Below are positions 2,135 to 25,018 of a stretch of 25,337 nucleotides of DNA, piece after piece. The notes under the pieces are model-generated. The model ran no database searches, had not been told where the DNA came from, and was given only the letters and a program-made list of their open reading frames with translations. Made by a program: the position numbers and the translations under genes. This stretch comes from a virus: positions 1 through 25,337 of IMG/VR virus record IMGVR_UViG_3300044940_000622; one strand, 5' to 3'. Each line of letters begins with the position of its first letter. Position 1 is the first letter of the stretch.

Positions 2135-2352
2135 CGAGATCACAAATGATAGAAATTCTTAAAAAAAGCATTCGCAATCATATAAATTGTAATGAAATAG
2201 ATGATACGATGTGCTCTAATATACTACTAGACCTAGAAGAAAATGGTATGCAGCCACCAGAATACTTTAATGTAGAGTATTACGACGAGCCAGAATGTGA
2301 CGGTATGATAACTGCATGGGAACCAGAATGCGACGTTAAAGTAACTAAATAA
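2131..2352 (+). CDS. Small phage protein (GMQPP / WEPE type)
   Basis: 73 residues, acidic C-terminal half. An N-terminal helix (SQMIEILKKSI) is followed by LDLEENGMQPPEYF and a TAWEPECD tail. The 'L-x-x-L-E-x-x-G-M-x-P-P ... W-E-P-E' pattern resembles small phage proteins of unknown function that I recall. It is coupled to the metallophosphoesterase by a 4-base ATGA overlap, suggesting joint expression. No catalytic motif is visible; three Cys are not spaced like a zinc ribbon. Confidence 0.7.
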   Translation: MTRSQMIEILKKSIRNHINCNEIDDTMCSNILLDLEENGMQPPEYFNVEYYDEPECDGMITAWEPECDVKVTK

Positions 2353-2368
2353 GAACTAGATTATATTT

Positions 2369-2392
2369 TAGTATATAGTATATAGTATATAG
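2369..2392 (+). repeat. Short TATATAG tandem repeat
   Basis: Three consecutive copies of TAGTATA-type units (AGTATATAGTATATAG and so on) lie in the 95-base gap between two small genes. This could be slippage sequence or an AT-rich promoter region; a clear -35/-10 pair is not visible. Confidence 0.45.
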
Positions 2393-2447
2393 TTAATTAT
2401 ATACTTGCTTTATTGAATAGATTTGATAACATGGATATGGAGGATTT

Positions 2448-2657
2448 ATGAGCAACTTTAAAGAAAAAAGACAAAATTTAGATATCTTAGACGTAGAAGT
2501 AGAAGGCATAAACACTAGTGATTACCCAGACTTCTGCGACGCTTATATCACAAAAGCGGCCTGGTCTGACGGGACTGAGCTGACCGAAGACGAGCTAGAT
2601 GAATTAAACAATGACAGTGACTTTGTGTACCGAAGCGTACTGAATTATATCAATTGA
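2448..2657 (+). CDS. Small acidic phage protein (DYPDFCDAYI type)
   Basis: 69 residues, strongly acidic, with SDYPDFCDAYITKAAWSDG followed by ELTEDELDELNNDSDFVYRS. This 'D-Y-P-D-F-C-D-A-Y-I ... L-x-x-x-E-L-D-x-L-N' arrangement recurs in small uncharacterised proteins of large phages; no biochemical role is known to me. The start is well supported by a GGAGG Shine-Dalgarno (within ATGGAGGATTT) just before the ATG. It ends 7 bases before the next gene, so the pair is probably co-transcribed. Confidence 0.75.
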   Translation: MSNFKEKRQNLDILDVEVEGINTSDYPDFCDAYITKAAWSDGTELTEDELDELNNDSDFVYRSVLNYIN

Positions 2658-2664
2658 AATTTAT

Positions 2665-2880
2665 ATGATATTATATAAGTTTAGCTATATGGACGCGATA
2701 GGCCTACCCCTAAAGGATATAGAAAATCACATATCTAATATCGTCAATGAACAGGCCGAACTAGAAGGTTGGGGAACAGGTTACAAGGTTGATATTGCAG
2801 GCCCTACAATAGTCACACAAGACGGCCTCCTGCGATACGATGTAACTATAGAAACAGACTCGCCTAATTGCTGCGCTTAG
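2665..2880 (+). CDS. Hypothetical small phage protein
   Basis: 71 residues, starting MILYKFSYMDAIGLPLKDIE, with a central helix ending QAELEGWGTGYK and a beta-rich C-terminal half (RYDVTIETDSPNCCA). Neither the ATG at 2665 nor the in-frame ATG at 2689 has a good ribosome-binding site, so the start is uncertain. The stop TAG (2878-2880) overlaps the stop TAA of the convergent 1581-residue structural gene (2877-2879 on the minus strand). I do not recognise the family; the repeated 'EGWGTG' next to a helix suggests a small alpha/beta fold. Confidence 0.65.
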   Translation: MILYKFSYMDAIGLPLKDIENHISNIVNEQAELEGWGTGYKVDIAGPTIVTQDGLLRYDVTIETDSPNCCA

Positions 2881-5800
2881 GACGATAAGCTGACCGACTG
2901 CCACTCGATTGTTAGAGCCCATTGTGTGGGTGCGCCGGCTGCCCCGTAGGCTACGGCTACAATATCATTGCCGTTTATGCCGAAAAGTAAGCTGTAAGTC
3001 AATGCATCACCACTAGCACCAAAACTGTTGGCAATAGGGAATCCGGCTGCTACAGGTGCGCCGCCCTCACGATAAAAGGTACCCTCAATACTAAAAGAGC
3101 CAGTGCCATTAGTGCCGTCACTTCGCCTAACCGTAGCTGATATCTTAACCCTAATAGCTCTATTGTCGGCTAAAGTAATCTCTGAACCCGTGATCGTTGT
3201 ACCAGTATTAGTAACGACTGTTTGTGCAGCGGTTTTATAATTAACCTGTGAGCCAGGGTGAGATGTATGGGTTTTAACAGCCTGAAGTGCAGTCCAAGTT
3301 GCTTTTGGTTTATTATTTTCTCTGCCAATTATAAATTGCTGGTCAGATATACCAAAAATACCGCCTAGCTGTGAAGCACCACCATCGATCTCTATAGAGC
3401 CAGCTATCTTGAGTGCCGTTTCCCCTATTGATGGGTTGGCTGCATTGATTTCGACAGGTAAGAGGGAAGCTAGGTTTATGATTCTACCGCCATTATAGGC
3501 AGATTGCAGCGTAACATCTCCTGCTTTAGCGGCTACAGCAGAGCCGTAAGCTGGTAATACACGGCTTCTTAAATAAAGATTGCCACCTGTCGCTTGCAGA
3601 AAACGTATTTTGGCTTTTGGGCCACCAAAAGTTTCTTCGTAGTCTCTGTCAGCCTGCTTTACAATACCATTATAAAGAACCAGAAGCTCTTCGCCGGTAA
3701 GATTTGGGTCATTGGACGCTTTATAGTGCGAGTGAGTACCGAAAACAACATAAGCAGAGCCTACAACTTGGGTTCTACGATTTGGTGGCAATACTATTTC
3801 TACGTTTGTGGCCACTGAAGGAGCTGTAAAAGGTGGGTTGCCTGGGTTATTCACTGTCCTAGAGGTGACAACGCCGTTCTGGGACAGTGCATCTCCGTCG
3901 TTAAACGAACCGGAAATGATGTGGACCAAGATAGAGTTTGGTCCAAGTGAAACGTGACCGCCTGGCATAGTGATTGGTGCGGTCTCAATAGTTTCAACTA
4001 CGGGAGCGTTCCCGTGAAGAACCCAGGCAAGTGCGGTGGGGTTGTCTTGCGATCCTTTGTAAATATAGGACCCGCTTCGGATGGTTCCTGTACCCGACAA
4101 ATCCATCTGCTGGATAAAGACAGTTTCGTCGTAAATAGGCCTGTTTAGAGCGGTGTTTATTTTGGCCAGCTCCCTATCTTCTTTTCTAAGACCAAGGGTT
4201 AGATTATCGGAGTCATTAATATTGTAGTTTAATCTATAATAGGTGACTTCATCGGTAGGTGACAGATTGCTAACATCTTCATTAAACACAACGGTCCTGG
4301 AACTTATTGTATGTTTAACAGTAAAAATATAAGTCGTTAAACCAACTGTTTTTACTACCCTATCGTTTTTAGAAAAATTAAGCTCTGGACCAGATACAAA
4401 TGTAACCATTCTGGTCTTTTGATCTACCTGCTCAACTTCCAACTCTTGAGTGTATTGGTATTGACCAACGGATTGAATAACTGAATAGTTTGGGTTTGTT
4501 GCGGCTTCAGAACCAGCGCCGGTGTACGTCAGCAAATTGCTGGGTTCATTATCGTTGACTTGCCTAACCTCACCCAATTCTAATTCTAGGTTTCTTAGGT
4601 ACGCTTTAGAAGTAGCTGAACCGTTGTCGCGCCTAAACGCTATCCAGTATACATCTCCGCTTGAATCAACCTGCCAATGCTTCTTAACTTTGATTGTGTT
4701 GTATATGCCTTTAGAATATTTTAATTTGCCTGATTTCGCCGGTCTATGGGCAGTCGATGGGGCTTGGCCGCTATCATCTACTAAAGTAAAGCTATTAGTA
4801 ACAACCGGAGTGCCTATTACGCCGGCTATTCTTAACCAGCGGTTTTCTTCTTCGCCTTCCCATTTTACGTAATCACCGGACACCAAGTTATTGCCGTTTT
4901 CATCTACTGGCGGTGTCGGGCCTACTACTGTTGCGCCACCGGTAGTGCTATAGCTAGCGCCGTTAGACACTAACTTATCGCGCTTAAGTATAACATAAGC
5001 AACGTCTCCGTTTCTCAGGTATACTGTGCCAGTAACCCCATTTGTGTTAAATTGGTTAGCAATTGGTGAAACATTAGCGTCTGTAGCTGTAGTTTCTGCA
5101 ATTGCAGTTTGTGGGATAACAAACAATTTATCGCCAATGATACCCTTAACTACAATATCTGCGTCCCAAGCGACTGGACCGGCGTAAGGATTTTGGGCAA
5201 ATTTAATAAAAGTATCGTGTGTGTTAGATGGGTTTGTATAACTGGCCACTGAAATTATTCCAGTGCCAACTAAAACAAACTGAGTCGGTGTCAATACGTT
5301 TATGCCAACCGCAGAATAAGTGCGGATATAGATAGAATCTAAAGGATTACCGTATATAGTGAAAGAAACTGGACCAGGGTTTGTGCTAAGCCCATGCGGT
5401 ACCAGGGTAGTTACTGTTAAATTACCGGCACCATCGTTAGTAATCGTGGTTACTCTAACAGGGTTTACAACTGTAGAAACTGCTACTACGCCATCAAGCT
5501 GTATCGCACCCCCAGCGTTACCTAAACCTGGTAGCGTATCTGGCCCAACTAGGTACACCAGAGAATATGGCGAAATAGAGACTGCATCAATCCCGCCAAC
5601 GTTAAATTCTTCTATTACACTGCCTGTAACGTCTAATGCAAACTGATGCGCCCACGGCATAGCTTTTGCATTAGATACTGTAGCTGTACCAGTAGGAGTT
5701 ACTGCAAGATTTACGTTTATTTCATTGGCACCAGGACCTAAAGATTCTACAGCCAATTTTCCGTTTGGGGCATTGGTAGTAGCTACCAGCCCTTTGACCA

Positions 5801-8109: not shown

Positions 8110-10343
8110 TATGCACCCCACACATACTCGGAATCATTGACTTTTAGGCCACCGATTGGTTCAAAATAGTGACCGAACCCAGTATCGTCGGGATAAATAA
8201 CTATGATTTCAAATGTTATACCAGAAGCTAACACTTCCTGTATAATAGATTCCGCAAAAACCCTGCCTTCTGATGTGCCGGTTACATAAAACCCGTAATC
8301 AGTCCCATCAGGGCTTGGCTCGTAGGCCTTAGAATCACTCATAACCGTAGCATCGGCACCAATATCGTGATCTTTTTTAAAAGCGTATGCTGGGTCTATA
8401 ATTACGATAGAAAATCCGCGCGGCGATTCTTGTGCTACAGTACCAGTGTTTTCTGTGACTGTGAGCGGAACCGACGATATTAAAGTAAAAGTATCACTAT
8501 CGGGCACGGACTCAACGGACCAAACCCCATTAAAGTTTACAGTACCGGTTATAACGATCTGTTGCTTCTCTTTTAAAAAATGTGGCTCTTGTGTATTTAC
8601 TACTATATTAGTGCCATTTTGCGATATTTCTAGTATGGGTGCAGAAATTGTGTTACCAATTTTTTGCGACGACAAGTATGGAACCGGACCTTCTTCGGTA
8701 GTTTTATTTAAGTCTAGCCATAAATTGCCTTGAGTATTTTCTATTGTTCCTTCAATTACTAAAGTTCTTTTATATTCCCCAGCGAATACGCGCTCCCTAA
8801 AGTTTCCTACCTGGCTAGTTAATGTATAATTAGCTTGTGGATCTATCACGTAGGCCCCTAAAAAGGGTTTGTCTGGGTCGTCTTTTAAAACCAAATCTAC
8901 GCTCACATTCACTATAAGGTTTGTATAAAACAAATTGGGAACACTAGACGGTACGGTCGGGAGTCCGTGCGGAGTCGATGTAACTACGGTTGTATAGCCA
9001 TTTTCTCTAAATACATAATCTATATCTACCTCTATAAGATTGGGATTTAGATAGCTTAATGTTCCGCCAGTCCCGTAATGATCGTATCCTGCTTGTCGGT
9101 ATCTTATGGCCCTGTCGTTTATTACTTGTACTTTCGCTTCTATATTAGTTGAACTACCAAAAGAGCCATTAAAGGTAGTTTCTGGGTATAATAAGTGTAA
9201 ATGAGCGCTTCCAATTAAATCACGTTTAACTACTTTAGTAGTAGCGGGAACATACACTTTGAGCTTGTTGGAATCCGGCTCCCACGCCAAAGCGTACCTG
9301 GTTTGCCCGTACGGTGTATTGCGCTTTGGTAAAAAAAACTTTAAGTCATTATAAGAAGTCTGGGCTACCGTAAATGAATAGAATATCGGCGGTGTATTTG
9401 GTGCTGGCAATTGACCAGGTGGAGTTGTACGTAACCCAGCAAAATTAGGGATAGTTATTTCAAACCAGCCAGAATTTATAGCAGGCACTGCTCCGGCTGG
9501 TGATACGTCCGTTACCTCAAATGTGCCGGCTATTCCGACACTCTCAAACCCGTTGCCGTATATTAAAGATGAGTCGCCTGGCAACACATTTTCAAGCAAA
9601 GGCTTACTGCCAGAAACCCATCGGAATCGGTGGGTTTGTCCAGAAGTCCTAGTTATTTCCCAAACGGTGTTATTTACGGGCAGGTTTGTGTCTCTAATTT
9701 CAGGAAACTCCATCTCATTTTGCACTCTTCCACCGTGTATTTGTACAAATGAATATGGTCCCCTGGCACCGCCGAATATTCTAACAAACCTGTTTCCAGT
9801 ATCAACGTCTAAAAATTCTTGGGCATATCCCTTTAGACCTCTGGCCCTGATGGCCCTTGTTATCAGGTCTGCAACTTCTTTAGCAGTGGCTTGCTGAATA
9901 TTAACAAAATCTTGTGGGGAAACCGTTATGGTAAATTTTTCGCCGTTTTCTAATGATATAATTAAATCGTCCCCTGGTTCAAAGAAATAGGGCGCGGGGT
10001 TAGCACAAGTGGTATATGCCCTGACTGACTCTTCACCATAAAACGTTTCCAATATGGCGTGGACAGCTTCTGATATCTGTTTTGTGGCTTTTAATTGTAT
10101 CCCCAGTTTTCTAAAAGCCAGGTCGTCTACCCCCAATTCTGCTGGGCGCACTACCACACTTGTAAGGTTTTTGTCCAGATAAACATCAGATGATGTTGAT
10201 ATATACAACTGGTTATTGACGGCTACGGATAACTCTTGCCTACGTTCATATTCATCAGCTAAAGACTGTATAATAGCCTCGGCATTTTCTTTACCGTGCA
10301 AGAAGTTTGATATAAACTGCTTTAAAAACGTATACTTATCCAA
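8109..10343 (-). CDS. Baseplate wedge-like structural protein (744 aa), TTG start
   Basis: The N-terminal region is helical (residues 1-105). Its ISTSSDVYLDKNLTSVVVRP and ELGVDDLAFRKLGIQ resemble the 'YLD-x-x-x ... GI-x-R-P ... D-x-F-R-x-L' stretch of baseplate wedge/J-like proteins of large phages. Residues ~120-170 (GDDLIISLENGEKFTITVSP, then QQATAKEVADLI) match a small domain common in phage structural proteins. Beta modules with TPHGL (458-460) and QEPHFLKEKQQIVITG (~590) follow. The start appears to be TTG: AAAGG sits 7 bases upstream and no in-frame ATG precedes it. The CCTAATCTT element lies 34 bases upstream. It is coupled to the tube-like gene by TAATG. Baseplate assignment is by resemblance only. 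Confidence 0.68.
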   Translation of the reverse strand: MDKYTFLKQFISNFLHGKENAEAIIQSLADEYERRQELSVAVNNQLYISTSSDVYLDKNLTSVVVRPAELGVDDLAFRKLGIQLKATKQISEAVHAILETFYGEESVRAYTTCANPAPYFFEPGDDLIISLENGEKFTITVSPQDFVNIQQATAKEVADLITRAIRARGLKGYAQEFLDVDTGNRFVRIFGGARGPYSFVQIHGGRVQNEMEFPEIRDTNLPVNNTVWEITRTSGQTHRFRWVSGSKPLLENVLPGDSSLIYGNGFESVGIAGTFEVTDVSPAGAVPAINSGWFEITIPNFAGLRTTPPGQLPAPNTPPIFYSFTVAQTSYNDLKFFLPKRNTPYGQTRYALAWEPDSNKLKVYVPATTKVVKRDLIGSAHLHLLYPETTFNGSFGSSTNIEAKVQVINDRAIRYRQAGYDHYGTGGTLSYLNPNLIEVDIDYVFRENGYTTVVTSTPHGLPTVPSSVPNLFYTNLIVNVSVDLVLKDDPDKPFLGAYVIDPQANYTLTSQVGNFRERVFAGEYKRTLVIEGTIENTQGNLWLDLNKTTEEGPVPYLSSQKIGNTISAPILEISQNGTNIVVNTQEPHFLKEKQQIVITGTVNFNGVWSVESVPDSDTFTLISSVPLTVTENTGTVAQESPRGFSIVIIDPAYAFKKDHDIGADATVMSDSKAYEPSPDGTDYGFYVTGTSEGRVFAESIIQEVLASGITFEIIVIYPDDTGFGHYFEPIGGLKVNDSEYVWGA

Positions 10344-10377
10344 TTGTGGACCTTTATATTTTTTGTGGTGTATTAAT

Positions 10378-10386
10378 AAGATTAGG
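10378..10386 (-). promoter_or_regulatory. CCTAATCTT element upstream of the baseplate-like gene
   Basis: The minus strand reads AAAGCCTAATCTTATTAATA, 34 bases before the TTG start at 10343. The site lies in an 83-base divergent region shared with the Imm5-like operon. It is one of five copies in the window. Confidence 0.55.
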
Positions 10387-10407
10387 CTTTGGGGTTTTAA
10401 TTATTTA

Positions 10408-10416
10408 TGGTATAAT
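10408..10416 (+). promoter_or_regulatory. Extended -10 promoter of the Imm5/receiver operon
   Basis: TGGTATAAT at 10408-10416 is a perfect extended -10 (TG, one base, TATAAT). The -35 position is poor (TTTGGG or TTGGGG near 10388-10394), as is usual for extended -10 promoters. Only 10 bases separate it from the ATG at 10427, so the transcript would have a leader of about four bases. No Shine-Dalgarno is present, suggesting leaderless or near-leaderless translation of the first gene. Confidence 0.6.
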
Positions 10417-10426
10417 TAAACTGATT

Positions 10427-10864
10427 ATGAGTATCAAAAAAACAATACCATATAATGTTTTACGGCTTGCTCACCTAACTATTACACGCCTGCCGCATTT
10501 ATCGCAAGAAATCGCACTGCAACTAGCTGAGCAAGTTTTACCCATTTTTGAAAATGAATACCCAAATGACAATAGGCCTAGGCAGGTCATAACTGCAGCG
10601 CGCAGATATTTTGCCAACCCTACAATAAAAAAAAATAAATATTTAGTAAAAAAAAGCCTTATTGCTTACAATGCTGTTACTGAGGCTCAAAAACATGGTA
10701 ACTATTACGCTGCCTTTGCTGCCTACGCCGCCTATTGGGCTCCTATTCAATACGGTGCTGCTGCTTGTTATGCTGCCTACGCCATCAATATTGATCAGTG
10801 GGATGTAAAGTTTCAGAATGTTGAATTAAAATTAATGAAATCAGATAGTTGGGTGCAACTGTGA
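10427..10864 (+). CDS. Imm5-like protein, copy 1
   Basis: 145 residues starting MSIKKTIPYNVLRLAHLTIT. The conserved core LALQLAE-type helix, PIFENEYPNDNRPRQVI and TAARRYFANPT match what I recall of Imm5-like domains (an immunity-protein-like helical family seen in large phages). The middle is a Tyr/Ala-rich low-complexity stretch (AAFAAYAAYWAP, CYAAYA). The C-terminus SDSWVQL is shared, nearly unchanged, by all four copies of this family in the window. The ATG at 10427 is chosen by alignment with the other copies; longer in-frame extensions would run through the promoter. It is the first gene of the operon; its TGA overlaps the GTG of copy 2 (GTGA, 10861-10864). Whether it binds a toxin is unknown. 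Confidence 0.7.
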   Translation: MSIKKTIPYNVLRLAHLTITRLPHLSQEIALQLAEQVLPIFENEYPNDNRPRQVITAARRYFANPTIKKNKYLVKKSLIAYNAVTEAQKHGNYYAAFAAYAAYWAPIQYGAAACYAAYAINIDQWDVKFQNVELKLMKSDSWVQL

Positions 10865-11376
10865 TTAAATTTAATAAATCAATTCCAGATCATATTATAA
10901 AATTCGGTCACTTGACCGTTGCAAACCTGCCTAATTTCTCCACAGAAACCATGCTGCAGCTCTCTGAATTAGTTTTACCTATTTATGAAAGTATGTTTCC
11001 CGAAGAGGGCGGGCCCAGGCAGGCTATTGCTGCAGCCCGTAGATATATGGCTGACCGCACAGAAGATAATTGGATCGCGTCCGGACAGGCTGCCGCAAAC
11101 GTTGTTAAATCTATCCATTCCGCCTCCAATACTTCCCTTAATAATCCCAACATTAAACCCGATGACTATTGGGATGCCTATCACGCTGCCATAGCCACCT
11201 ATCACGCTGTCCTGGCTACCTATTACACTGCCAGCGGCTCATATTTGGATATGTATAGAGCTAACACCGCTGCCAGTTGGGCCGCCAAGTCGATCAGAAT
11301 TAAGCAACATAAAATAAAAATTCGGGACAACAAATTAAATGTAATGAAATTAAATAGTTGGGTGCAGTTATGCTAA
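10861..11376 (+). CDS. Imm5-like protein, copy 2 (GTG start)
   Basis: 171 residues starting M(V)IKFNKSIPDHIIKFGHLT. It has the family core LQLSELVLPIYESMFPEEGG and PRQAIAAARRYMADRTED, then a long small-residue-rich helix region (YHAAIATYHAVLATYYTAS). The C-terminus is LNSWVQLC. The GTG at 10861 lies 5 bases after GGGTG, which sits inside the codons for the WVQL tail of copy 1 and can act as Shine-Dalgarno; an upstream TTG at 10849 is in frame but breaks family alignment. The gene runs 7 bases into the receiver-domain gene (ATGCTAA). It is diverged from copies 1 and 3 in DNA sequence, so it is an older paralogue. Confidence 0.7.
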   Translation: MIKFNKSIPDHIIKFGHLTVANLPNFSTETMLQLSELVLPIYESMFPEEGGPRQAIAAARRYMADRTEDNWIASGQAAANVVKSIHSASNTSLNNPNIKPDDYWDAYHAAIATYHAVLATYYTASGSYLDMYRANTAASWAAKSIRIKQHKIKIRDNKLNVMKLNSWVQLC

Positions 11377-12086
11377 GCGATAAGCTATTAAATACTGACA
11401 AACCAGTTGTACTTATAGTAGAAGACGACCCGCAAATAGCCTCTGGACTGGCCATATTTTTTCATTCTAAAAATTACTGCGTATACGTAGAAAGCAGTGT
11501 AGATAATGCCAGACGCAAACTTCAGGTGTTTGATTATTCTAAAACATTGGTGGACCTTGCTTTTATACAAAACAGTGCTGATCAAAAAGGAGCGGCATTT
11601 GTTAGCGATCTGCATCGTAAGTACGCTAATGTTAAAACTGTTGTTATACAAGACAGCAGGAACAATCCAGCCATTGCCAGCGCATTTGTACACAGAGATG
11701 ATGATATTGTGATGGCTGGGCAAATTGCTCACGATACTTTACTATACAGCCAAGAAATGTTAAATGAATATATTAAAGCGGCCAGAATAAAAGATAAAAA
11801 ACTAAAAGAAATAGAGAGAACTAGACAACTAGCTTATTTATCAAAACACACCCCAGCGGAAATAGCGGCAGCTTTGGACAAAAAAAGGCAAGTGGCTGCA
11901 AAGATAGCTCCAATTGTACTTCAGCTTTTTGATGCATGGGATAATGTGCATTTAAGGCGGCAATATTGGAAAGAGATTGTTGGTAAGTCTAAAGTATATA
12001 AGCACAATATTAAAATAATGACCATTGTTGGTATGTTTAGACTATATAAAGCTTATCGATTAAGGAGTGCCGGTCAGTGCAAATAA
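11370..12086 (+). CDS. Receiver-domain (response-regulator-like) protein
   Basis: 238 residues. Residues 11-100 follow the CheY-like receiver pattern: a beta-1 strand VVLIVEDDP with the acidic pocket E18/D19/D20, a helix, a strand ending in the likely phospho-acceptor D62 (KTLVDLAFI), G74, and a strand VKTVVIQDS. The usual conserved Lys near residue 110 is not evident (HRDDD instead), and Thr/Ser after beta-4 is shifted, so phosphotransfer may be impaired. Residues ~125-238 are helical and basic (TPAEIAAALDKKRQVAAKIA...) with no recognised DNA-binding domain. No histidine kinase is near. It sits between Imm5-like copies 2 and 3 with overlaps at both ends, a placement that implies joint function. 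The start ATG 11370 follows GGGTG by 5 bases. Confidence 0.68.
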   Translation: MLSDKLLNTDKPVVLIVEDDPQIASGLAIFFHSKNYCVYVESSVDNARRKLQVFDYSKTLVDLAFIQNSADQKGAAFVSDLHRKYANVKTVVIQDSRNNPAIASAFVHRDDDIVMAGQIAHDTLLYSQEMLNEYIKAARIKDKKLKEIERTRQLAYLSKHTPAEIAAALDKKRQVAAKIAPIVLQLFDAWDNVHLRRQYWKEIVGKSKVYKHNIKIMTIVGMFRLYKAYRLRSAGQCK

Positions 12087-12523
12087 CACTTAACAAATCA
12101 ATCCCAAACAAGATTTTGCAGTTTGGCCACGTGACTGTCCTCAATCTGCCGCATTTATCGCATGAAACAGCACTGCAACTAGCTGAACAAGTTTTACCCA
12201 TTTTTGAAAATGAATACCCAAATGACAATAGACCTAGGCAGGTCATAACTACAGCGCGCAGATATCTGGCCGATCCTACAAAAGAAAATTACAAAGAAAT
12301 GTTTCAAGCCGCTGACATTGCCTACAGGGCTATTAGCCACGAACACATTTTATATTGGACTATAGACTTTATTAGGAATTACTGTTTATTTTACACAACA
12401 GAAAGATATATTGCCAACATTGCTTATTGGGTTGCCTGCGCCATCAATATTGATCAGAAGGCAGTGAATTTAAGCGATACGGCATTAAAATTATTTCAAT
12501 CAAATAGTTGGGTGCAGCTATGA
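12077..12523 (+). CDS. Imm5-like protein, copy 3 (GTG start)
   Basis: 148 residues starting M(V)QITLNKSIPNKILQFGHV. The core QLAEQVLPIFENEYPNDNRP and RQVITTARRYLADPT is almost identical to copy 1, and the DNA of this block (12146-12265) differs from copy 1 (10490-10609) at only 6 of 120 positions. The N-terminal 20 residues and the C-terminal half differ from copy 1. The GTG start follows AAGGAG (12062-12067), which lies within the 3' end of the receiver gene; the two genes overlap by 10 bases. The C-terminus is SNSWVQL; its TGA overlaps the ATG of the zinc-ribbon gene. Confidence 0.7.
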   Translation: MQITLNKSIPNKILQFGHVTVLNLPHLSHETALQLAEQVLPIFENEYPNDNRPRQVITTARRYLADPTKENYKEMFQAADIAYRAISHEHILYWTIDFIRNYCLFYTTERYIANIAYWVACAINIDQKAVNLSDTALKLFQSNSWVQL

Positions 12524-14318: not shown

Positions 14319-14864
14319 TTATTCATCTTTTTTAGTAATATCTAAAAACTCTATATCGTTACGCAATCTTACGATACTATCATAAACGCCAAGATGATTA
14401 ACATAAATTCTATCCCGATAAGTCTGACCAAGCCTTACCACGGTGGCTTCAATCATAAGGGTGCTATCCCCATCTAGCTCTGCTGGAGATAGAGAGGTAC
14501 TAAGCACATCAGAAAAAAAATAGTGGTTAGATAGCTGACTGCCAGGTATTGTAACAATAAGGCTTTCGCTCCAATCTGGTGGATGAACGCGGTAGATTTT
14601 AAACGTACATGACCCAGCATTATCTATACTGCCTGTAGCGGTATTAAACAAATATGCCGCAAACTTAATACTGGAGAAATCATCCGTGTCAAATTGTGCA
14701 GCTATTTTTAAAATCTGAGACGATGATGAAAATGCAGAGTTAGGACCAAATATAATTTGCCATTCAGGCCCGTTATTAACAATAAAACGCTGCGACGAGT
14801 CTTGTTTTAGAGTTTGGCTTTCCTCAGAGTCATATTGTGCGAGCCATTTAGTAGTTACTGGCAT
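14319..14864 (-). CDS. Virion structural protein, beta-rich (181 aa)
   Basis: 181 residues starting MPVTTKWLAQYDSEESQTLK. It has alternating beta-strand pattern with 'SSIKFAAYLFNTATGSI', FKIYRVHPPDWSESLIV, and TLMIEATVVRLGQTYRDRI, a jelly-roll-like arrangement without enzyme motifs. Start codon two bases after the upstream stop (TAA-CA-ATG). Its place in the fibre operon supports a virion decoration or fibre role; I do not recognise a named family. Confidence 0.62.
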   Translation of the reverse strand: MPVTTKWLAQYDSEESQTLKQDSSQRFIVNNGPEWQIIFGPNSAFSSSSQILKIAAQFDTDDFSSIKFAAYLFNTATGSIDNAGSCTFKIYRVHPPDWSESLIVTIPGSQLSNHYFFSDVLSTSLSPAELDGDSTLMIEATVVRLGQTYRDRIYVNHLGVYDSIVRLRNDIEFLDITKKDE

Positions 14865-19354: not shown

Positions 19355-19843
19355 ATGATTAAACTTAATAAATCAATCCAAGACAGGGTTTTGCATTTTG
19401 GGTATTTGACCACAGAAGGTATACCGTACGCGCCAGCAGAAATTACGCTGCAGCTAGCTGAACTAGTTCTACCCATTTATGAAAGCAATGGCTTGAAAAA
19501 CCGAAACCCAAGACAAGCTATTGCTGTAGTACGTGAATATATGGCCAATCCTACAGATGAAAACATGGAGGCCGTAAAACAAAACCCATACTCAATTAAG
19601 TACCCTACCCACAGTTACAATTGGGATACTGATCTTGACCCACGCCCTGAATGCGTTTATCATGCTGAAACCGTCACATATTATGCAAACCGCGCTGTCA
19701 ATCCTGACGATTATATTGCATATCATGCTGCCTATTGGGCTGCCCATTACGCCGCTAAAGCAATCGGCATTAAACAAAATAAAGTAAAGTTTCAGAATAT
19801 CGAATTAATACTAATAAAATCAAATAGTTGGGTGCAGTTATAA
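19355..19843 (+). CDS. Imm5-like protein, copy 4 (separate locus)
   Basis: 162 residues starting MIKLNKSIQDRVLHFGYLTT. It has the family core ITLQLAELVLPIYESNGLKN followed by PRQAIAVVREYMANPTDE, a His/Tyr/Ala-rich middle (YIAYHAAYWAAHYAAKAI) and the tail LIKSNSWVQL. The arrangement matches the three copies 7-9 kb away, including the DNA of the WVQL tail, so it is a dispersed paralogue. It has no Shine-Dalgarno and the putative -10 is 5 bases upstream. Unlike the other copies it is not coupled to a following gene; the stop is followed by a repeated AGGTCG...TATAAT sequence and the next transcription unit. Confidence 0.68.
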   Translation: MIKLNKSIQDRVLHFGYLTTEGIPYAPAEITLQLAELVLPIYESNGLKNRNPRQAIAVVREYMANPTDENMEAVKQNPYSIKYPTHSYNWDTDLDPRPECVYHAETVTYYANRAVNPDDYIAYHAAYWAAHYAAKAIGIKQNKVKFQNIELILIKSNSWVQL

Positions 19844-19856
19844 TTAAAACCTAGAT

Positions 19857-19919
19857 AGGTCGACATATAATAAAAAACATGTTGATTTCTAATTTCAGGT
19901 CGGCTATAATAAAAACATA
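19857..19919 (+). repeat. Direct repeat carrying two -10-like boxes
   Basis: AGGTCGACATATAATAAAA at 19857-19875 and AGGTCGGCTATAATAAAAA at 19897-19915 are near copies about 40 bases apart, both containing TATAAT and both followed by CAT. The arrangement suggests tandem promoters or a duplicated regulator site (AGGTCG) placed just before -10. Confidence 0.6.
19882..19910 (+). promoter_or_regulatory. Sigma70-type promoter of the small-gene block
   Basis: TTGATT at 19882-19887 and TATAAT at 19905-19910 are separated by exactly 17 bases. The ATG at 19931 follows an AGAGAGG ribosome site. It drives the row of overlapping small genes from 19931 onward. Confidence 0.65.
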
Positions 19920-19930
19920 GAGAGGTTGTA

Positions 19931-20209
19931 ATGAAAAAAATCACAAAAGAACAAGCAATTAAAGTAATAAATAGCCTAAAAAATGATATTTTTACAGTAG
20001 AGTTTGTAAAGAAAAATGGTGACCTGAGATCGATGAACTGCCGACTCGGTGTTACTAAGCACCTGAAAGGCGGTGAGCAGGCTTATGAACCGTCGGATTA
20101 TGACCTAGTTTGTGTGTTCGACATGAAAAAACAAGCCTACAGAAGCATTAACCTCAACACTCTAAAAACCATTAAGATAAAGGGAGAACAATATGCAGTC
20201 GTACTATGA
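19931..20209 (+). CDS. SH3-beta-barrel-like small phage protein
   Basis: 92 residues starting MKKITKEQAIKVINSLKND, then VEFVKKNGDLRSMNCRLGVT and KHLKGGEQAYEPSDYDLVCV and FDMKKQAYRSINLNTLKTIK. The pattern 'F-V-K-K-N-G-x-L-R-x-M-N-C-R-L-G-V-x-K-x-L-K-G-G ... V-F-D-M-x-K-x-A-Y-R-x-I-N-L' is that of small phage proteins often named SH3 beta-barrel-fold proteins. The function is unknown; a nucleic-acid or protein-binding role is likely for the fold. AGAGAGG precedes the ATG. It overlaps the next gene by 17 bases. Confidence 0.75.
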   Translation: MKKITKEQAIKVINSLKNDIFTVEFVKKNGDLRSMNCRLGVTKHLKGGEQAYEPSDYDLVCVFDMKKQAYRSINLNTLKTIKIKGEQYAVVL

Positions 20210-20465
20210 TACAATTGATAAAGGCGGGGTTTATATAGTAAACGCAGAAAATGGACGAATAAGTGGGTTTTACCCAGATGAATTGTCTGCAAATGACGCT
20301 TTGTTTGAGTTTTCTATTACTGGAGTACCACACATAATTATTTTAGAAAAACTCGAAGGGAAAGAGCAACAATATTACAGTATAACTACAGAAAAAATGT
20401 ATCGACAATTAGAAGATGCTATTAATGATACGACTGTTTTTTTAATGTCTGGGAGACAGAGATGA
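20193..20465 (+). CDS. Hypothetical phage protein (90 aa)
   Basis: 90 residues starting MQSYYDTIDKGGVYIVNAEN, with strands IIILEKLEG and YYSITTEKMYRQLEDAIND. The start ATG follows an AAAGGGAGA ribosome site inside the 3' end of the previous gene. No family is recognised. The stop overlaps the start of the next gene (GATGA at 20461-20465). Confidence 0.68.
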   Translation: MQSYYDTIDKGGVYIVNAENGRISGFYPDELSANDALFEFSITGVPHIIILEKLEGKEQQYYSITTEKMYRQLEDAINDTTVFLMSGRQR

Positions 20466-20671
20466 AAAAAATGACAAATAATATAAAACTATCGGAGTTG
20501 CCTGCAGGCCCAAGATATGTTGGCGAAATGTTTGTAACAGATTTAAATGATATTTTTATATATACCGATAGCGGTTGGGACTATATAGACGCAGATATGC
20601 TATCCGAATTGAACCGTATTGCAATAAAATCAATAACTAAACCATCGTGTGACAATAAACACAGTATATAA
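20462..20671 (+). CDS. Hypothetical phage protein (69 aa)
   Basis: 69 residues. 'LSELPAGPRYVGEMFVTDLN' and 'IFIYTDSGWDYIDADMLSEL' are the recognisable stretches; a second in-frame ATG at 20471 is possible, but GGGAGACAGAG before 20462 supports the first. It is coupled to the upstream gene by ATGA. No function can be assigned. Confidence 0.62.
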   Translation: MKKMTNNIKLSELPAGPRYVGEMFVTDLNDIFIYTDSGWDYIDADMLSELNRIAIKSITKPSCDNKHSI

Positions 20672-20681
20672 AAGAGTATTT

Positions 20682-20864
20682 ATGGTTAAATTAAGCTCAA
20701 AAGACATTGGCCCTATTAAAGATCTTGCGATGCAAATTTTTCATAACACCAGAAAGTTTCACTCCCAGAATGCAAATGAAATGCGCATAGAAATTATCGT
20801 AAGGGCGGTCTTAGACTATATTAAAACTAAAGGTGTCGATATAAATGTTGAGTGGGTAGACTAA
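20682..20864 (+). CDS. Hypothetical phage protein (60 aa)
   Basis: 60 residues starting MVKLSSKDIGPIKDLAMQIF, helical throughout, ending VDINVEWVD. The ATG at 20682 is chosen over an in-frame GTG at 20649 because the latter lies inside the previous gene without a ribosome site; AAAAGAG is a weak ribosome site before 20682. No family recognised. Confidence 0.58.
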   Translation: MVKLSSKDIGPIKDLAMQIFHNTRKFHSQNANEMRIEIIVRAVLDYIKTKGVDINVEWVD

Positions 20865-20865
20865 A

Positions 20866-21105
20866 ATGTTGCGAGATTTGAATTACTTTATCAATAAATT
20901 CAATAATATACCAGATAATTTAAAGGTTGTAACAGATTGCCTTGAATTATGGGACGAAGGTGAAATTGACGACTTTTTATCAATTTTAAATAAAGACATT
21001 TATATTGCTGCATTTGATTTTGTCTATTTATCTGATAAGATTGGCAGTGAGAAGGCCGCGGCACAGCTTGTTTTAAAAAATCTTAAACAAAAAATGGCGG
21101 CGTAA
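20866..21105 (+). CDS. Hypothetical acidic helical protein (79 aa)
   Basis: 79 residues starting MLRDLNYFINKFNNIPDNLK, acidic in the middle (LELWDEGEIDDFLSILNKD), then ending basic (VLKNLKQKMAA). The start is one base after the previous stop. No ribosome site is obvious. The family is unknown; the helical acidic make-up is that of many small phage early proteins. Confidence 0.58.
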   Translation: MLRDLNYFINKFNNIPDNLKVVTDCLELWDEGEIDDFLSILNKDIYIAAFDFVYLSDKIGSEKAAAQLVLKNLKQKMAA

Positions 21106-21143
21106 ACAATGTTTATTTTTATATATCACATAAAGGAGTCGGC

Positions 21144-21371
21144 ATGGAATTAATTTGTAAGGCGTGTAATAAGCGCGGTAAAACTTGCTTTGATTGCGAA
21201 AACGCTGACAAACCATTATATGCTGAAAAAAAACGCATATGCAGGTCGTGTGGCAGACCTTGCAGCGATGACCGCTATTTCAATTGCAGAACATGCGTAA
21301 CGCTAGAAACTGACGACGAAGTATATAATCATTTAGTACCACAGAGCAAAAAGAAAAAAGGCGCTGCTTAA
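21144..21371 (+). CDS. Cys-rich double zinc-knuckle protein
   Basis: 75 residues with four Cys pairs: CKAC, CFDC, CRSC and (after CSDDRYFN) CRTC, that is two possible zinc-binding knuckle pairs of the type ICKACNKRGKTCFDC and ICRSCGRPCSDDRYFNCRTC. The C-terminus is lysine-rich (QSKKKKGAA). The start has a clear AAGGAG ribosome site. Such proteins usually bind nucleic acids or protein partners in phage-infected cells; function not known. Confidence 0.7.
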   Translation: MELICKACNKRGKTCFDCENADKPLYAEKKRICRSCGRPCSDDRYFNCRTCVTLETDDEVYNHLVPQSKKKKGAA

Positions 21372-21377
21372 ATTAAT

Positions 21378-21390
21378 GCATTTTAAATGC
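21378..21390. repeat. 13-bp inverted repeat
   Basis: GCATTT (21378-21383), one T, AAATGC (21385-21390) in the short gap between the zinc-knuckle gene and the next gene. It is perfect but short, and has no U-tract, so a terminator is unlikely. Confidence 0.3.
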
Positions 21391-21416
21391 GGAAAAGAAT
21401 AAAAAGGAACAGAGAT

Positions 21417-21752
21417 ATGGGAAAGATAATTGATTTTATTACAAAAACAGTGATTTATGAAAATGATTGCGACAAATTAAGCCAATCTGGTCGGCGTAAT
21501 TTAAAAGACCCAAAAACGCCAAATAAGATTAATAAATCAACTGTAATATCCGGCAGTCAAGACAATACCACAGCACTAGACGAAATAATCAGGATGCTAC
21601 GCAATAATATTGAGTTTTTACAATTAATTAAAGGGAAAAATAATCCAGAAGTGATATCGTTTATAGATGTTTTAGAGTTTCATTTAAGTTATTTCCAAAC
21701 ACTAAAAGATGAGGTACAGAACAATCCAACAATTAAAAGTAGAGGTGAGTGA
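21417..21752 (+). CDS. Hypothetical phage protein (111 aa)
   Basis: 111 residues starting MGKIIDFITKTVIYENDCDK. The second half is helical and regular (LDEIIRMLRNNIEFLQLIKG). The ATG at 21417 follows AAGGAACAGAGAT; an upstream in-frame ATG at 21387 would add MRKRIKRNRD but lacks a ribosome site. The stop overlaps the start of the next mini-gene by one base (TGATG), and AGAGGTGA in its last codons forms that gene's ribosome site. Confidence 0.62.
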   Translation: MGKIIDFITKTVIYENDCDKLSQSGRRNLKDPKTPNKINKSTVISGSQDNTTALDEIIRMLRNNIEFLQLIKGKNNPEVISFIDVLEFHLSYFQTLKDEVQNNPTIKSRGE

Positions 21753-21820
21753 TGTCAAAAGAATACAAAGATAGATGGGATAAGCCAATAGTGAATCCGC
21801 CATTAGTGGGTGTGTTATGA
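21752..21820 (+). CDS. 22-residue mini-gene (MSKEYKDRWDKPIVNPPLVG...)
   Basis: Reading ATG at 21752 to TGA at 21818-21820 gives 22 residues: MSKEYKDRWDKPIVNPPLVG plus VL. The start overlaps the upstream stop by one base (TGATG), has a near-perfect AGAGGTGAG Shine-Dalgarno, and the stop overlaps the ATG of the next gene (ATGA, 21817-21820). Continuous coupling on both sides argues for a translated peptide or a translational bridge rather than chance. No function is known. Confidence 0.58.
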   Translation: MSKEYKDRWDKPIVNPPLVGVL

Positions 21821-22035
21821 TATTTTATCTGGCGCAGCTATATTTGTGTGTAGGATTCGGTTTTTATTTTGGGGTGTCGGTAGCCAGAATTCATGTTTTT
21901 GACAATGCAACCTTGCATTCAGTCATTAAAGGTTTTCTATTCAATGTATTGTTATGGCCGATTGCGGCGGTATTATGCTTATTGGATTATTTAGATTCGG
22001 ATGATTCTATGAATAGGAAAACGGATGAAAATTAA
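21817..22035 (+). CDS. Small membrane protein (72 aa)
   Basis: 72 residues starting MIFYLAQLYLCVGFGFYFGV with a second hydrophobic segment (KGFLFNVLLWPIAAVLCLL), so two membrane helices around residues 3-24 and 38-58, then an acidic, polar tail. The ATG overlaps the mini-gene stop. It overlaps the start of the PDZ-protein gene by 11 bases and is probably made with it. No family recognised. Confidence 0.65.
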   Translation: MIFYLAQLYLCVGFGFYFGVSVARIHVFDNATLHSVIKGFLFNVLLWPIAAVLCLLDYLDSDDSMNRKTDEN

Positions 22036-22438
22036 ACGCCTGTTTTTATCACCATGGGTTATTTCCGTACTGTTACACATATTGCCTATTTTGATGTATC
22101 TATTGGCATATATTTTACACCTTTTAATGTTCTCTAGTCCAAAAAATGGGTCGCAACAATACCCAGTTACCGAGATATTTACAGAAAAGGGGGCGGGCGC
22201 TTATTGTAAGCGATACTATGGAGGCATAGGTATAAAGTACGAGGGAGCAACTAATACAATCAAAGAAATCGCTCCAGGTTATGTTGCCGACCGAATCGGC
22301 CTACAAGTTGGTGATGTAATAGTTTGGGGTGATTCTAGCATAAGAGGCGCGGTCGGCAGGCATATTACAATCACCTACCTTAGAAAAGGTGTTTTATACA
22401 AAAAGAAAGTCGTGACTGAAAAAATCTGTCTGGATTAA
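22025..22438 (+). CDS. Membrane-anchored PDZ-domain protein
   Basis: 137 residues. Residues ~10-36 are a hydrophobic helix (PWVISVLLHILPILMYLLAY) preceded by a basic N-terminus, then a linker, then a PDZ domain at ~63-133: GGIGIKYEG in the peptide-binding-loop position (GΦGI type), IKEIAPGYVADRIGLQVGD as the 'S-P-A-x-x-A-G-L-x-x-G-D' core, and VIVWGD. No protease residues (no Ser/Zn active site) are present, so it is not DegS or RseP but a stand-alone adaptor that would bind C-terminal peptides at the membrane, most likely with a periplasm-facing PDZ. AGGA precedes the ATG inside the upstream gene. The stop TAA overlaps the convergent gene's stop. Confidence 0.68.
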   Translation: MKIKRLFLSPWVISVLLHILPILMYLLAYILHLLMFSSPKNGSQQYPVTEIFTEKGAGAYCKRYYGGIGIKYEGATNTIKEIAPGYVADRIGLQVGDVIVWGDSSIRGAVGRHITITYLRKGVLYKKKVVTEKICLD

Positions 22439-24444
22439 GGGGATATTCGCAGTCTTAGCTTGCCACAGTCATACACCCTTAAAAGCCCATCTAATTCTGC
22501 GTGCTCAAATTCAGTCATTCCCTTGGGTGTGCCCACTTTGTTTTTTGCTCGTGCCTGCTTAGAAACATAACATAGCACTTGAGAGCAATAAAAGTAATCG
22601 GGGTTTATTTTTTTATCTAGCACAAAGCCGGCTTTACTGTAAGATTTTCCGTTAGACTTAGATAAATCTACAAAGGTGTATAAATCACAACCCAGTGTTT
22701 TTGCTGCATGTTTGCAGATTTTAGCTAGTCCACCATGCACCAAAACACCCTCAGCAAAGCACACTCTATTTATTAGCAAACCTTTTGTAGAATTGCGATG
22801 ATGCTTTCCTACAGTAACTACGGCCAATAGTTCATTTCTATTAAAAAGACCAAATGCTGCAATAAACAGACTTTTAGGGAAACTGCCCCTAATATGATAC
22901 CTATTTAGAAAATCAGATGCTATTTGGTAGCTGATTGTTTTTATTATACATTTTCTGGCAAAAACCCGCCTTAAGTTGCTGCCTAATTTAGACCGCAAAT
23001 AAGACTTAATTTGAGCAGATTTATATTTCCATTCATGTTCCCATACGTGTATTAAAGTAAAACCATTGGCATTAAAATGTTCAGTTTTGTCACGATGAAA
23101 ATTATTTGACTTATAAATATGAGAATGCCAATAAGCACCGTTAAACTCTATGGCAATTTTTTTAGAAGGCACTACAATATCTGCCTCTACTCCGCCTACC
23201 TTATGCCGGTACAGGGCATCGGGGCAATAAGTCTGAACCCAAGCATACAAATCTCGCTCACCTTTAGATGAACCATGACATTTATTGCACTGTACGCCCC
23301 GCGCTACAAATCCGATAGTCGTAGTAAAAGTATGGCCGCAACGGCTATTAAAAAATGTGCCCTGCTCAGACATAACTGGGGTTTCTCCGAGAAAAGTAAT
23401 ATACTCTGGCAATCTTTTTAGTATTTCATTGCTTGGCAATCTCTTTTTGAGACCTTTTCTGGCTGGGTGTATTTTTTTACCTAATATAACATCAGATGGC
23501 AGTCCGGTAAATTCACCATATTCTGAATCTATAAATGTAGCTGGCTGGTTACCGGCTTTAAAAGTTTCCGGTACCATAGTTATGCCTTCAGGCATTCGAC
23601 TAGTAAAATGTTCCAACAAAGACATACGTGCTTTTTTAATATTTTCTTTGATTCGCTCGGGGTGTTTTTTCCCGCTATAAATTACAGATGTGGGGCTGGC
23701 CTCAAATTCTCCATACTGCTCATCTATCATTATGGCAGGACGAGACATGCCTTTATAAGTATCTCGTTTTATTGATATACCATCGGGCAATTTTTTTATT
23801 ACTTCATCAATCGGCTTTATATTATTATTTTCAGCTTGAGCGCGATCAGGGTGTTTTTTGGCTCCCGATAAGACATCTCTAACACACCCAGTAAATTCCC
23901 CGTATTCGCTATCTATAAACGTGGCAATGGACTTTTTGCCACGATACGTTTCAGGCTTGATAGTTATAATTGCACTGCCCGTTGCGGAACAATTATCAGA
24001 ATTGGCCATAGATTGATTTAAAATATCCAAATCTTTAATTATTTGGTCAATAGGGGCGCGCTTCTTAGCCGCTATTTCTTTGGCGCGATTGGGGTGGTGT
24101 TTGTTTTTAGCCACCACATTGCATACCAGACCCTCAAACTCGCCGTAATCCCGGTCAATAAAGACAGCAGTATGTTTCCAGCCCTTATAGGTATGTTTAA
24201 CAAGCGTCAGATATTCGGGCAAACGTTTTTGTATATCTTCCGGGGTACTATGTGGCAGCCGTTTCCTGGCTGGGTGGCGTTTTTGTCGAGATGTTACTAG
24301 GCGAACTATACCAACAAATTCACCGTATTCTTTATCTATAAAAGTCGCCGGTTTGGTTACACCTTTAAAAGTCTCCGGGACCAATACAATACCTTCTGGT
24401 AGGCGTTTTTGGATGTCTTCGGGAGTTAAAAAAGAGCCCTTCAT
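22435..24444 (-). CDS. EDxHD (Vsr-like) homing endonuclease with N-terminal DUF723-type repeats and GNAT-like C-terminus
   Basis: 669 residues. Five tandem ~60-70-residue repeats (~8-66, 67-130, 131-205, 211-270, 275-330) share '(L-P-x-x) ... ETFKG ... ATFIDxEYGEF ... HPxR', resembling DUF723-type repeats. A sixth, diverged unit (~340-390) carries a Cys/His cluster (RCGHT, CNKC) like a zinc finger. Residues ~395-475 hold the Vsr/EDxHD nuclease: E396 (GERDLYAWV), D422, E433 and H440 (IAIEFNGAYWHS), D452 (HRDKTE), and HVWEHEW. Residues ~500-669 match the conserved C-terminus of Hef/I-Bth0305I-like enzymes (FLNRYHIRGS, CDLYTFVDLSKSNG, MTEFEHAELDGLLRVYDCG). Likely a site-specific DNA endonuclease spreading its own gene. 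It sits between tail-tube and PDZ genes without a CCTAATCTT element. The start has no ribosome site but an extended -10-like TGGTATATC 6 bases upstream. Confidence 0.8.
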   Translation of the reverse strand: MKGSFLTPEDIQKRLPEGIVLVPETFKGVTKPATFIDKEYGEFVGIVRLVTSRQKRHPARKRLPHSTPEDIQKRLPEYLTLVKHTYKGWKHTAVFIDRDYGEFEGLVCNVVAKNKHHPNRAKEIAAKKRAPIDQIIKDLDILNQSMANSDNCSATGSAIITIKPETYRGKKSIATFIDSEYGEFTGCVRDVLSGAKKHPDRAQAENNNIKPIDEVIKKLPDGISIKRDTYKGMSRPAIMIDEQYGEFEASPTSVIYSGKKHPERIKENIKKARMSLLEHFTSRMPEGITMVPETFKAGNQPATFIDSEYGEFTGLPSDVILGKKIHPARKGLKKRLPSNEILKRLPEYITFLGETPVMSEQGTFFNSRCGHTFTTTIGFVARGVQCNKCHGSSKGERDLYAWVQTYCPDALYRHKVGGVEADIVVPSKKIAIEFNGAYWHSHIYKSNNFHRDKTEHFNANGFTLIHVWEHEWKYKSAQIKSYLRSKLGSNLRRVFARKCIIKTISYQIASDFLNRYHIRGSFPKSLFIAAFGLFNRNELLAVVTVGKHHRNSTKGLLINRVCFAEGVLVHGGLAKICKHAAKTLGCDLYTFVDLSKSNGKSYSKAGFVLDKKINPDYFYCSQVLCYVSKQARAKNKVGTPKGMTEFEHAELDGLLRVYDCGKLRLRISP

Positions 24445-24541: not shown

Positions 24542-25018
24542 TTATGCGCCATCATCTAGGTTAGAAGCGGTATTTGATTCACCGTCTCCGCCCTGGGATT
24601 CGCCGTATTCATCCTGACCTAGCAGGCCTAAGATGTTTATACTTACGTCGGATAATCCTCGCGATGCTACACCGCTACTCCATCCAAGTACTCTGCACCC
24701 TAAAGCGCTGAATATAACCTTGCCGGTTTGACGATCAAGCACTGTAACAGTGAAATCCTCTTCTTCAAGCAGGTTTTTTAACAATGTGGCGTTAGCTACC
24801 TTATAAGGGCCAGCATCTACTACCCTGTAGCCTGTTAATGTCAAACTAACGGCTTCTTGGGCGGTAGGTGTGATCTCCGCCGGGCTGTGTCTGCCCAATA
24901 TAAAAGCGGGCTGTTTGTCTTGTCTAATCGACCAAGAGCAGTTGGTAAAAAGCCCAACTGTCGTGCCGTTAATCAGGACTTTTGCCCGCGCTCCTGTTAA
25001 TATTTGTGATCTAGCCAT
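24542..25018 (-). CDS. Tail tube-like protein
   Basis: 158 residues starting MARSQILTGARAKVLINGTT. Beta strands alternate with loops in the tail-tube pattern: VGLFTNCSWSIRQDKQPAFI, LGRHSPAEITPTAQEAVSLT, VDAGPYKVANATLLKNLLEE, FTVTVLDRQTGKVIFSALGC and SVASRGLSDVSINILGLLGQ (positions ~20-140). The 'PAEI...L-T-L-x-G-Y' and 'D-R-x-T-G-x-V' turns resemble other contractile-phage tube proteins. A short acidic Gly/Asn/Asp tail ends it. It follows a probable sheath C-terminus, the usual sheath-tube gene order, and is flanked by terminators on both sides, consistent with strong single-gene expression. AGGAG lies 11 bases before the ATG. A shorter paralogue is at 7654-8109. Confidence 0.72.
   Translation of the reverse strand: MARSQILTGARAKVLINGTTVGLFTNCSWSIRQDKQPAFILGRHSPAEITPTAQEAVSLTLTGYRVVDAGPYKVANATLLKNLLEEEDFTVTVLDRQTGKVIFSALGCRVLGWSSGVASRGLSDVSINILGLLGQDEYGESQGGDGESNTASNLDDGA

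Follow-up and report, generated by a model that had tools for sequence, protein, structure and literature searches.

The outer membrane is powered by motors of the Ton/Tol type, through which many phages and bacteriocins gain entry. TonB and TolA of E. coli have a single N-terminal membrane helix with an S-x3-H motif and a C-terminal periplasmic domain. According to the papers cited here, the residues of this motif contact ExbB/TolQ (S16 and H20 in TonB, S18 and H22 in TolA; PMC12215075), the D-box binds ExbD (PMC10907165), and strand addition is the mode used by the TonB C-terminal domain and by the D-box (PMC10907165, PMC12204202). The last of these also proposes bacterial TonB-like transducers with a vWA C-terminal domain (PMC12204202); they resemble the family described below in joining an SHLS-type helix to an unrelated C-terminal domain, and differ in being bacterial, in carrying vWA and not PDZ, and in often being linked to motor genes. 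The term 'PDZ' occurs 0 times in the text of that paper. DegS/HtrA proteins share another arrangement with the family, a membrane anchor followed by a C-terminal domain of the same PDZ fold. A search of the open-licence literature found no phage protein consisting of a membrane helix and a PDZ domain (TM-PDZ), and no Ton/Tol transducer that was of PDZ type or encoded by a phage.

The window analysed here is an entire IMG/VR record of 25,337 bases and represents a virus fragment. The fragment is related to Myxococcus phage Mx1, a protein of which resembles one of the large structural-type proteins of the window (32.5% identity over 69%). Contigs of 138.7 and 157.3 kb encode relatives of the protein at 24542-25018, and four large-phage relatives gave no match to the PDZ protein. 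The plus-strand genes from 19355 to 22438 diverge from the minus-strand structural genes, and the last four of them overlap end to start. The TM-PDZ gene is the final gene of this chain and converges with a minus-strand gene (22435-24444) with a four-base overlap. The three genes that precede it, as read from the open reading frames, are:

21387-21752, plus strand: open reading frame of 121 aa that heads the overlapping run

21752-21820, plus strand: open reading frame of 22 residues that overlaps its neighbours on both sides

21817-22035, plus strand: 72-aa protein with two hydrophobic stretches and an 11-base overlap with the start of the PDZ gene

Because these genes overlap end to start, co-expression of the TM-PDZ gene with the 72-aa and 22-residue genes is plausible. 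A search for relatives of the neighbouring genes 21817-22035 and 20649-20864 returned none; the 72-aa gene had a weak relative in contig L051, lying about 5 kb from the PDZ gene of that contig and not adjacent to it, so linkage between the 72-aa and PDZ genes does not hold outside the window. Inspection of the surroundings of the window PDZ gene revealed no recognisable lysis gene.

Several other features of the window were recorded. The convergent gene at 22435-24444 encodes a homing-endonuclease-like protein that matches PHROG 3339/559 and is preceded by an ATFID.EYGEF repeat present in about five copies; a protein of this kind also occurs at L001 3994-5163. Four similar plus-strand proteins (10346-10864, 10849-11376, 12077-12523 and 19355-19843), three of them clustered, have the common C-terminal tail SWVQL (SWVQLC in one). 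Such a shared tail is curious in a phage that encodes a PDZ domain, and the proteins that carry it look cytoplasmic. The plus-strand gene at 252-1184 encodes a protein of short LVNDP..YVRRAIA.NPNLHP-type repeats, with a shorter relative at L055 3872-4213.

The first-pass annotation had described 22025-22438 as a stand-alone membrane PDZ protein of a phage, lacking protease residues, and this description was borne out: a helix (residues 10-35) and a PDZ domain (residues 61-137) were found in a phage context, and no match to a trypsin-like catalytic domain was obtained in the protein or in the 25 kb window. The parts of the gene are listed below, with the basis of each assignment in brackets.

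22025-22438, plus strand: complete coding sequence of the 137-aa TM-PDZ protein, with an ATG start (open reading frame, Pfam, AlphaFold2 model, Foldseek)

22052-22129, plus strand: N-terminal membrane helix, residues 10-35 (DSSP helix on the model)

22064-22078, plus strand: S14-x3-H18 motif, SVLLH, with the histidine invariant in 11 of 11 members (family alignment)

22130-22204, plus strand: linker, residues 36-60, without a TonB D-box-like strand in the window member (sequence)

22205-22435, plus strand: PDZ domain without helix alpha2, residues 61-137 (Pfam, model, Foldseek, VIA, alignment)

22205-22207, plus strand: codon of Cys61, probable disulfide partner of Cys135 (the pair is present in 10 of 11 members, and L028 has neither cysteine)

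22427-22429, plus strand: codon of Cys135, probable disulfide partner of Cys61 (family alignment)

The Pfam profile PDZ_6 matched the window protein with an E-value of 4.1e-5 and a score of 23.7 bits, which falls short of the curated threshold of 27; the relatives from L022 (27.9 bits) and L028 (27.5 bits) exceed this threshold. Both PDZ_6 and PDZ_2 matched all eight members of the first family alignment (E <= 5). AlphaFold2 gave a poor model from the single sequence (pLDDT 52), and with the eight-sequence family alignment returned a model of mean pLDDT 82 that contained helix 10-35 and a PDZ-like beta fold. The top Foldseek matches of this model were CtpA (8sxf, E 3.9e-4) and DegS (3gdu, E 5.9e-4), and DegS chains with OMP peptides ranked among the top fold matches. 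VIA gave Z-scores of 10.1 to H. pylori CtpA (73 residues, 1.7 Å) and 9.5 to DegS (77 residues, 2.4 Å), making CtpA/Prc the nearest PDZ by structure; the aligned stretch is 90 residues long in CtpA against 73 in the model, and no peptidase S41 domain was found in the window protein. A search of a viral fold library with the model returned nothing at E <= 0.001 (best 0.029). The predicted structure thus supports a PDZ fold for residues 61-137.

Searches with the window protein as query yielded no convincing relative among viral contigs, and the best E-values were 1 for phages, 0.7 for plasmids, 0.18 for PDB sequences and 0.36 for PHROGs. Relatives were obtained by searching for the PDZ core as a degenerate DNA pattern, followed by alignment searches and a local HMM. 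The pattern gave 32 stretches, roughly half of which were unrelated frames or ordinary PDZ proteases; L019, L025, L031 and L035 were added by the HMM, and a rescan with a larger core alignment returned the same nine contigs. In total, a small TM-PDZ protein of this kind is encoded by 15 more viral contigs, which fall into seven lineages besides that of the window (L022 and L059; L023 and L028; L051; L052, L053 and L054; L055 and L056; L057; L019, L025, L031 and L035), giving 16 contigs and eight lineages with the window, where the grouping into lineages is a reading of sequence and context. The TM-PDZ protein therefore belongs to a new small family that is spread over several unrelated phages. 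The window phage has a sister in L028, whose structural gene 10206-10757 is 55% identical to window 14319-14864 and whose PDZ gene sits in a divergent cassette corresponding to that of the window. A metallophosphatase-like gene is common to L055 and the window (54%).

Among 369 gammaproteobacterial genomes, 52 gave matches at E <= 1e-8, with frames of 340-583 aa among the matches listed; among 398 Pseudomonadota genomes, 290 gave matches at E <= 1e-6, and the smallest frame among the matches listed was 282 aa. These frame lengths suggest that the bacterial matches are PDZ proteases, and no small stand-alone cellular homologue was present among the matches listed for the two sets. A very large viral contig (L027, 447.8 kb) encodes, at 162-404, a PDZ protein of 81 aa that stands alone and has no membrane helix.

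Conservation was counted in an alignment of 11 distinct family sequences. The linker between helix and PDZ domain varies among the members. Ten columns were invariant (window numbering): H18, Y65, G67, G69, G85, A88, G92, D97, R120 and I134, of which Y65, G67 and G69 belong to the G-x-G carboxylate-loop region. The two cysteines that bracket the PDZ domain, C61 and C135, are both kept in ten of the 11 sequences and both lost in L028. Because they are present or lost jointly, a disulfide closing the PDZ domain is probable, which would place the domain in the periplasm. The positively charged N-terminus (KIKR) likewise suggests an N-in helix and a periplasmic PDZ domain.

Classical binding of C-terminal tails by PDZ domains requires the groove between beta2 and alpha2. 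The window model has no helix between strands 98-102 and 113-120, the usual place of alpha2, and the span from D97 to R120 is 23 residues, compared with 35 in E. coli DegS. This span is 21-26 residues in nine of the 11 members and longer in L028 (31) and L055 (34). Helix alpha2, one wall of the peptide groove, is absent in most family members, and with this segment missing they do not have the wall that usually holds a C-terminal peptide. The first-pass annotation had read the protein as a truncated DegS/RseP-like arrangement that could bind C-terminal tails or interfere with host envelope-stress proteases. The nearness of the PDZ fold to CtpA and DegS, including the DegS-OMP peptide chains, is in keeping with a decoy that titrates such tails or disturbs the sigma-E response. 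The missing alpha2 wall argues against classical tail binding, however, the anchor is unlike that of DegS, whose N-terminal helix has no histidine, and no sigma-E gene context or other pointer to sigma-E was seen. The likeness to DegS therefore stands for the fold and fails for the anchor, the sigma-E proposal is weakened, and a decoy of this kind is improbable. The window protein, having no protease domain, is not DegS.

The family searches used PDZ cores from residue 52 or later as queries. The membrane helix was therefore free to vary and was not selected for, yet H18 within it is invariant in 11 of 11 sequences. The residue four positions before the histidine is Ser in five, Thr in two and Val in four, so that Ser/Thr occurs in seven of 11 and the Val-bearing sequences make up two of the eight lineages. 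Among viral contigs, 51 ORFs passed a simple N-terminal membrane helix (N-TM) rule; all seven family members among them had a membrane histidine and six had [ST]xxxH, compared with three and none of the 44 non-family ORFs (L053 and the L019 group were absent from this control owing to the hydropathy and gene-picking rules and were counted on neither side). In 150 kb of E. coli sequence (130 CDS), four of 33 N-TM proteins had the histidine and none had [ST]xxxH, while E. coli TonB and TolA scored positive with the same script. As a yardstick, TonB_C proteins of eight bacterial genomes had a histidine in the hydrophobic stretch at nine of 21 loci, counting some frames that are not simple TonB proteins and at least one match that may be a signal peptide. 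A membrane histidine is thus common but not universal among TonB_C proteins.

Further likeness to TonB and TolA was found in some relatives. L057 matched the TolA profile TIGR02794 far below the cut-off (E 0.0018, residues 6-68 on profile positions 3-65), the only such match among the 11 members, and the L019 group had no match to a TolA/TonB profile. The L057 linker contains VEVTFVT at +27 from the histidine, the same distance as the ISVTMVT D-box of E. coli TonB, and the L051 linker contains MEVTVVD. With patterns composed after two members had been looked at, a loose strand pattern occurred in linkers of six of the eight lineages (P 0.0008, shuffle mean 1.56), and a stricter pattern resembling the D-box of TonB/TolA was present in four of eight (shuffle mean 0.24; none of 10,000 shuffles reached four). 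One obvious difference is that the family carries a PDZ domain as its C-terminal domain; it also has a short linker, is phage-encoded and has no motor genes nearby. The window protein has no D-box-like strand, and Y25 and Y29 stand where the complete SHLS motif has Leu and Ser; by these features and its C-terminal domain it is not TonB or TolA. Among 12 viral records no ExbB/TolQ-type gene exceeded the cut-off, with one ExbB match below it (G004, E 5.5e-4), and the motor would therefore have to come from the host.

We tentatively favour the reading, somewhat short of probable, that the protein is an inner-membrane pseudo-transducer that docks a periplasmic PDZ grip on host Ton/Tol-type motors. 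The N-in helix would dock laterally on a host proton-driven motor of the ExbB/TolQ type through its S-x3-H face, as the TonB and TolA helices do, aided in several members by the short D-box-like linker strand. The PDZ domain would take the place of the TonB/TolA C-terminal domain, and its open beta edge could grip an envelope partner by beta-strand addition. The likely outcome, and the least certain part, would be an occupation or redirection of Ton/Tol energy at the envelope by the phage, which could thereby shut out rival phages or bacteriocins dependent on Ton/Tol or make the outer membrane weaker for lysis. Several points count against a transducer: the linkers of the family are short for spanning the periplasm, a membrane histidine can serve other roles, the -4 residue is Val in the four sequences mentioned, and the window member lacks the SHLS Leu/Ser and the D-box-like strand. 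In addition, at least two lineages adjoin lysis genes or a protease instead.

The protease neighbours bear on a split HtrA, in which the TM-PDZ protein would recognise substrates in trans for a separately encoded phage trypsin-like protease, the two together forming a DegS in two pieces. The trypsin-like gene of L051 (7063-7758) scores 39.6 bits with Trypsin_2, over the cut-off, shows His, Asp and GNSGGP on inspection by eye, and shares the bases ATGA with the start of the PDZ gene; in L028/L023 a TM trypsin-like gene (Trypsin_2 50.4 bits) lies a few genes downstream of the PDZ gene in the same strand run. The family phrog_11383 (function unknown, 462 positions) appears to be a fused protease-PDZ protein, as it is matched by the L051 trypsin and, at its profile end, by the L028 PDZ domain (E 1.3e-5); the window member had no match to it at E <= 0.1. 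The related large phages G003 and G004 also encode a trypsin-like protease, but without a PDZ_6 match over the cut-off. The DegS proposal thus survives in an altered form, as the PDZ gene run of two relatives includes a separate gene for a trypsin-like protease without a PDZ domain. The pairing is real in these two of eight lineages and is not general: a scan of viral sequences found a PDZ gene within 4 kb at only one of 12 trypsin loci (L136, which is the L051 contig), and the PDZ carriers G000, G005 and G010-G014, most of which are fragments, had no Trypsin_2 match in the sequence examined. A split HtrA also leaves the invariant membrane histidine unexplained and is unlikely.

Other observations were made around these proteases. 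L051, a large Mx1-like phage, also encodes an envelope-type protease, an S8 subtilase (2199-3038). PDZ-less trypsin-like proteins recur in large Mx1-like phages (L028 919-1665, L039 1420-2184 and L042 1351-2160), three of them adjoining nucleotide-kinase-like genes. A protein with an N-TM helix, repeats in its middle part and conservation at its C-terminus recurs 5' of the trypsin-like gene (L051 6560-7069, L039 2178-2684, L042 794-1309), and its L051 copy gave a weak Rz-like spanin match (E 0.072).

The remaining contexts bear on a role as an accessory of the lysis module, in which an inner-membrane PDZ would link to an outer-membrane lipoprotein or disturb the outer membrane at lysis in a spanin-like or Tol-jamming manner. 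In L053, after a weakly holin-like gene, the PDZ gene is flanked on one side by a lipoprotein-like gene and on the other by a Phage_lysozyme gene, the start of which it overlaps, and in L051 the second gene beyond the PDZ gene is a convergent Phage_lysozyme gene. In L022 and L059 the PDZ gene follows a gene read by eye as ribonucleotide reductase, and genes that by eye look endolysin- and spanin-like lie at a distance of 2-3 kb, so that L022, with a spanin-like pair of its own, would have no vacancy for such an accessory; the window offers no recognised lysis gene nearby. An i-spanin has an N-in helix with a periplasmic coiled coil and is paired to an outer-membrane lipoprotein; the window protein has a helix, with a PDZ domain where the coil would be, and lipoprotein-like neighbours were seen only in L053. 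Spanins are not known to be PDZ proteins. We consider a lysis accessory quite unlikely. In L019/L035 the PDZ gene adjoins a terminase-like gene (by eye), and because its position differs among lineages no single neighbour defines its function. A metallophosphoesterase-like gene with an apparent intein-like insert was noted on the minus strand of L022 (7930-9447), with a relative of similar length in L059.

Extended to its broadest form, the pseudo-transducer reading would state that phages encode their own TonB/TolA-like force transducers, in which a motor-docking helix and a disulfide-closed, groove-trimmed PDZ domain hijack the host's proton-driven Ton/Tol motors and so exert a pull on a target in the outer membrane or jam it, and that in some phages this module is wired to a phage envelope protease; this full statement is doubtful. 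The family provides an example of a PDZ domain from which one wall of the classical ligand groove is absent. If the proposed docking is true, the TM-PDZ protein would represent a new phage means to exclude rivals or control the envelope, and would offer a compact probe of how the S-x3-H helix communicates with the motor.
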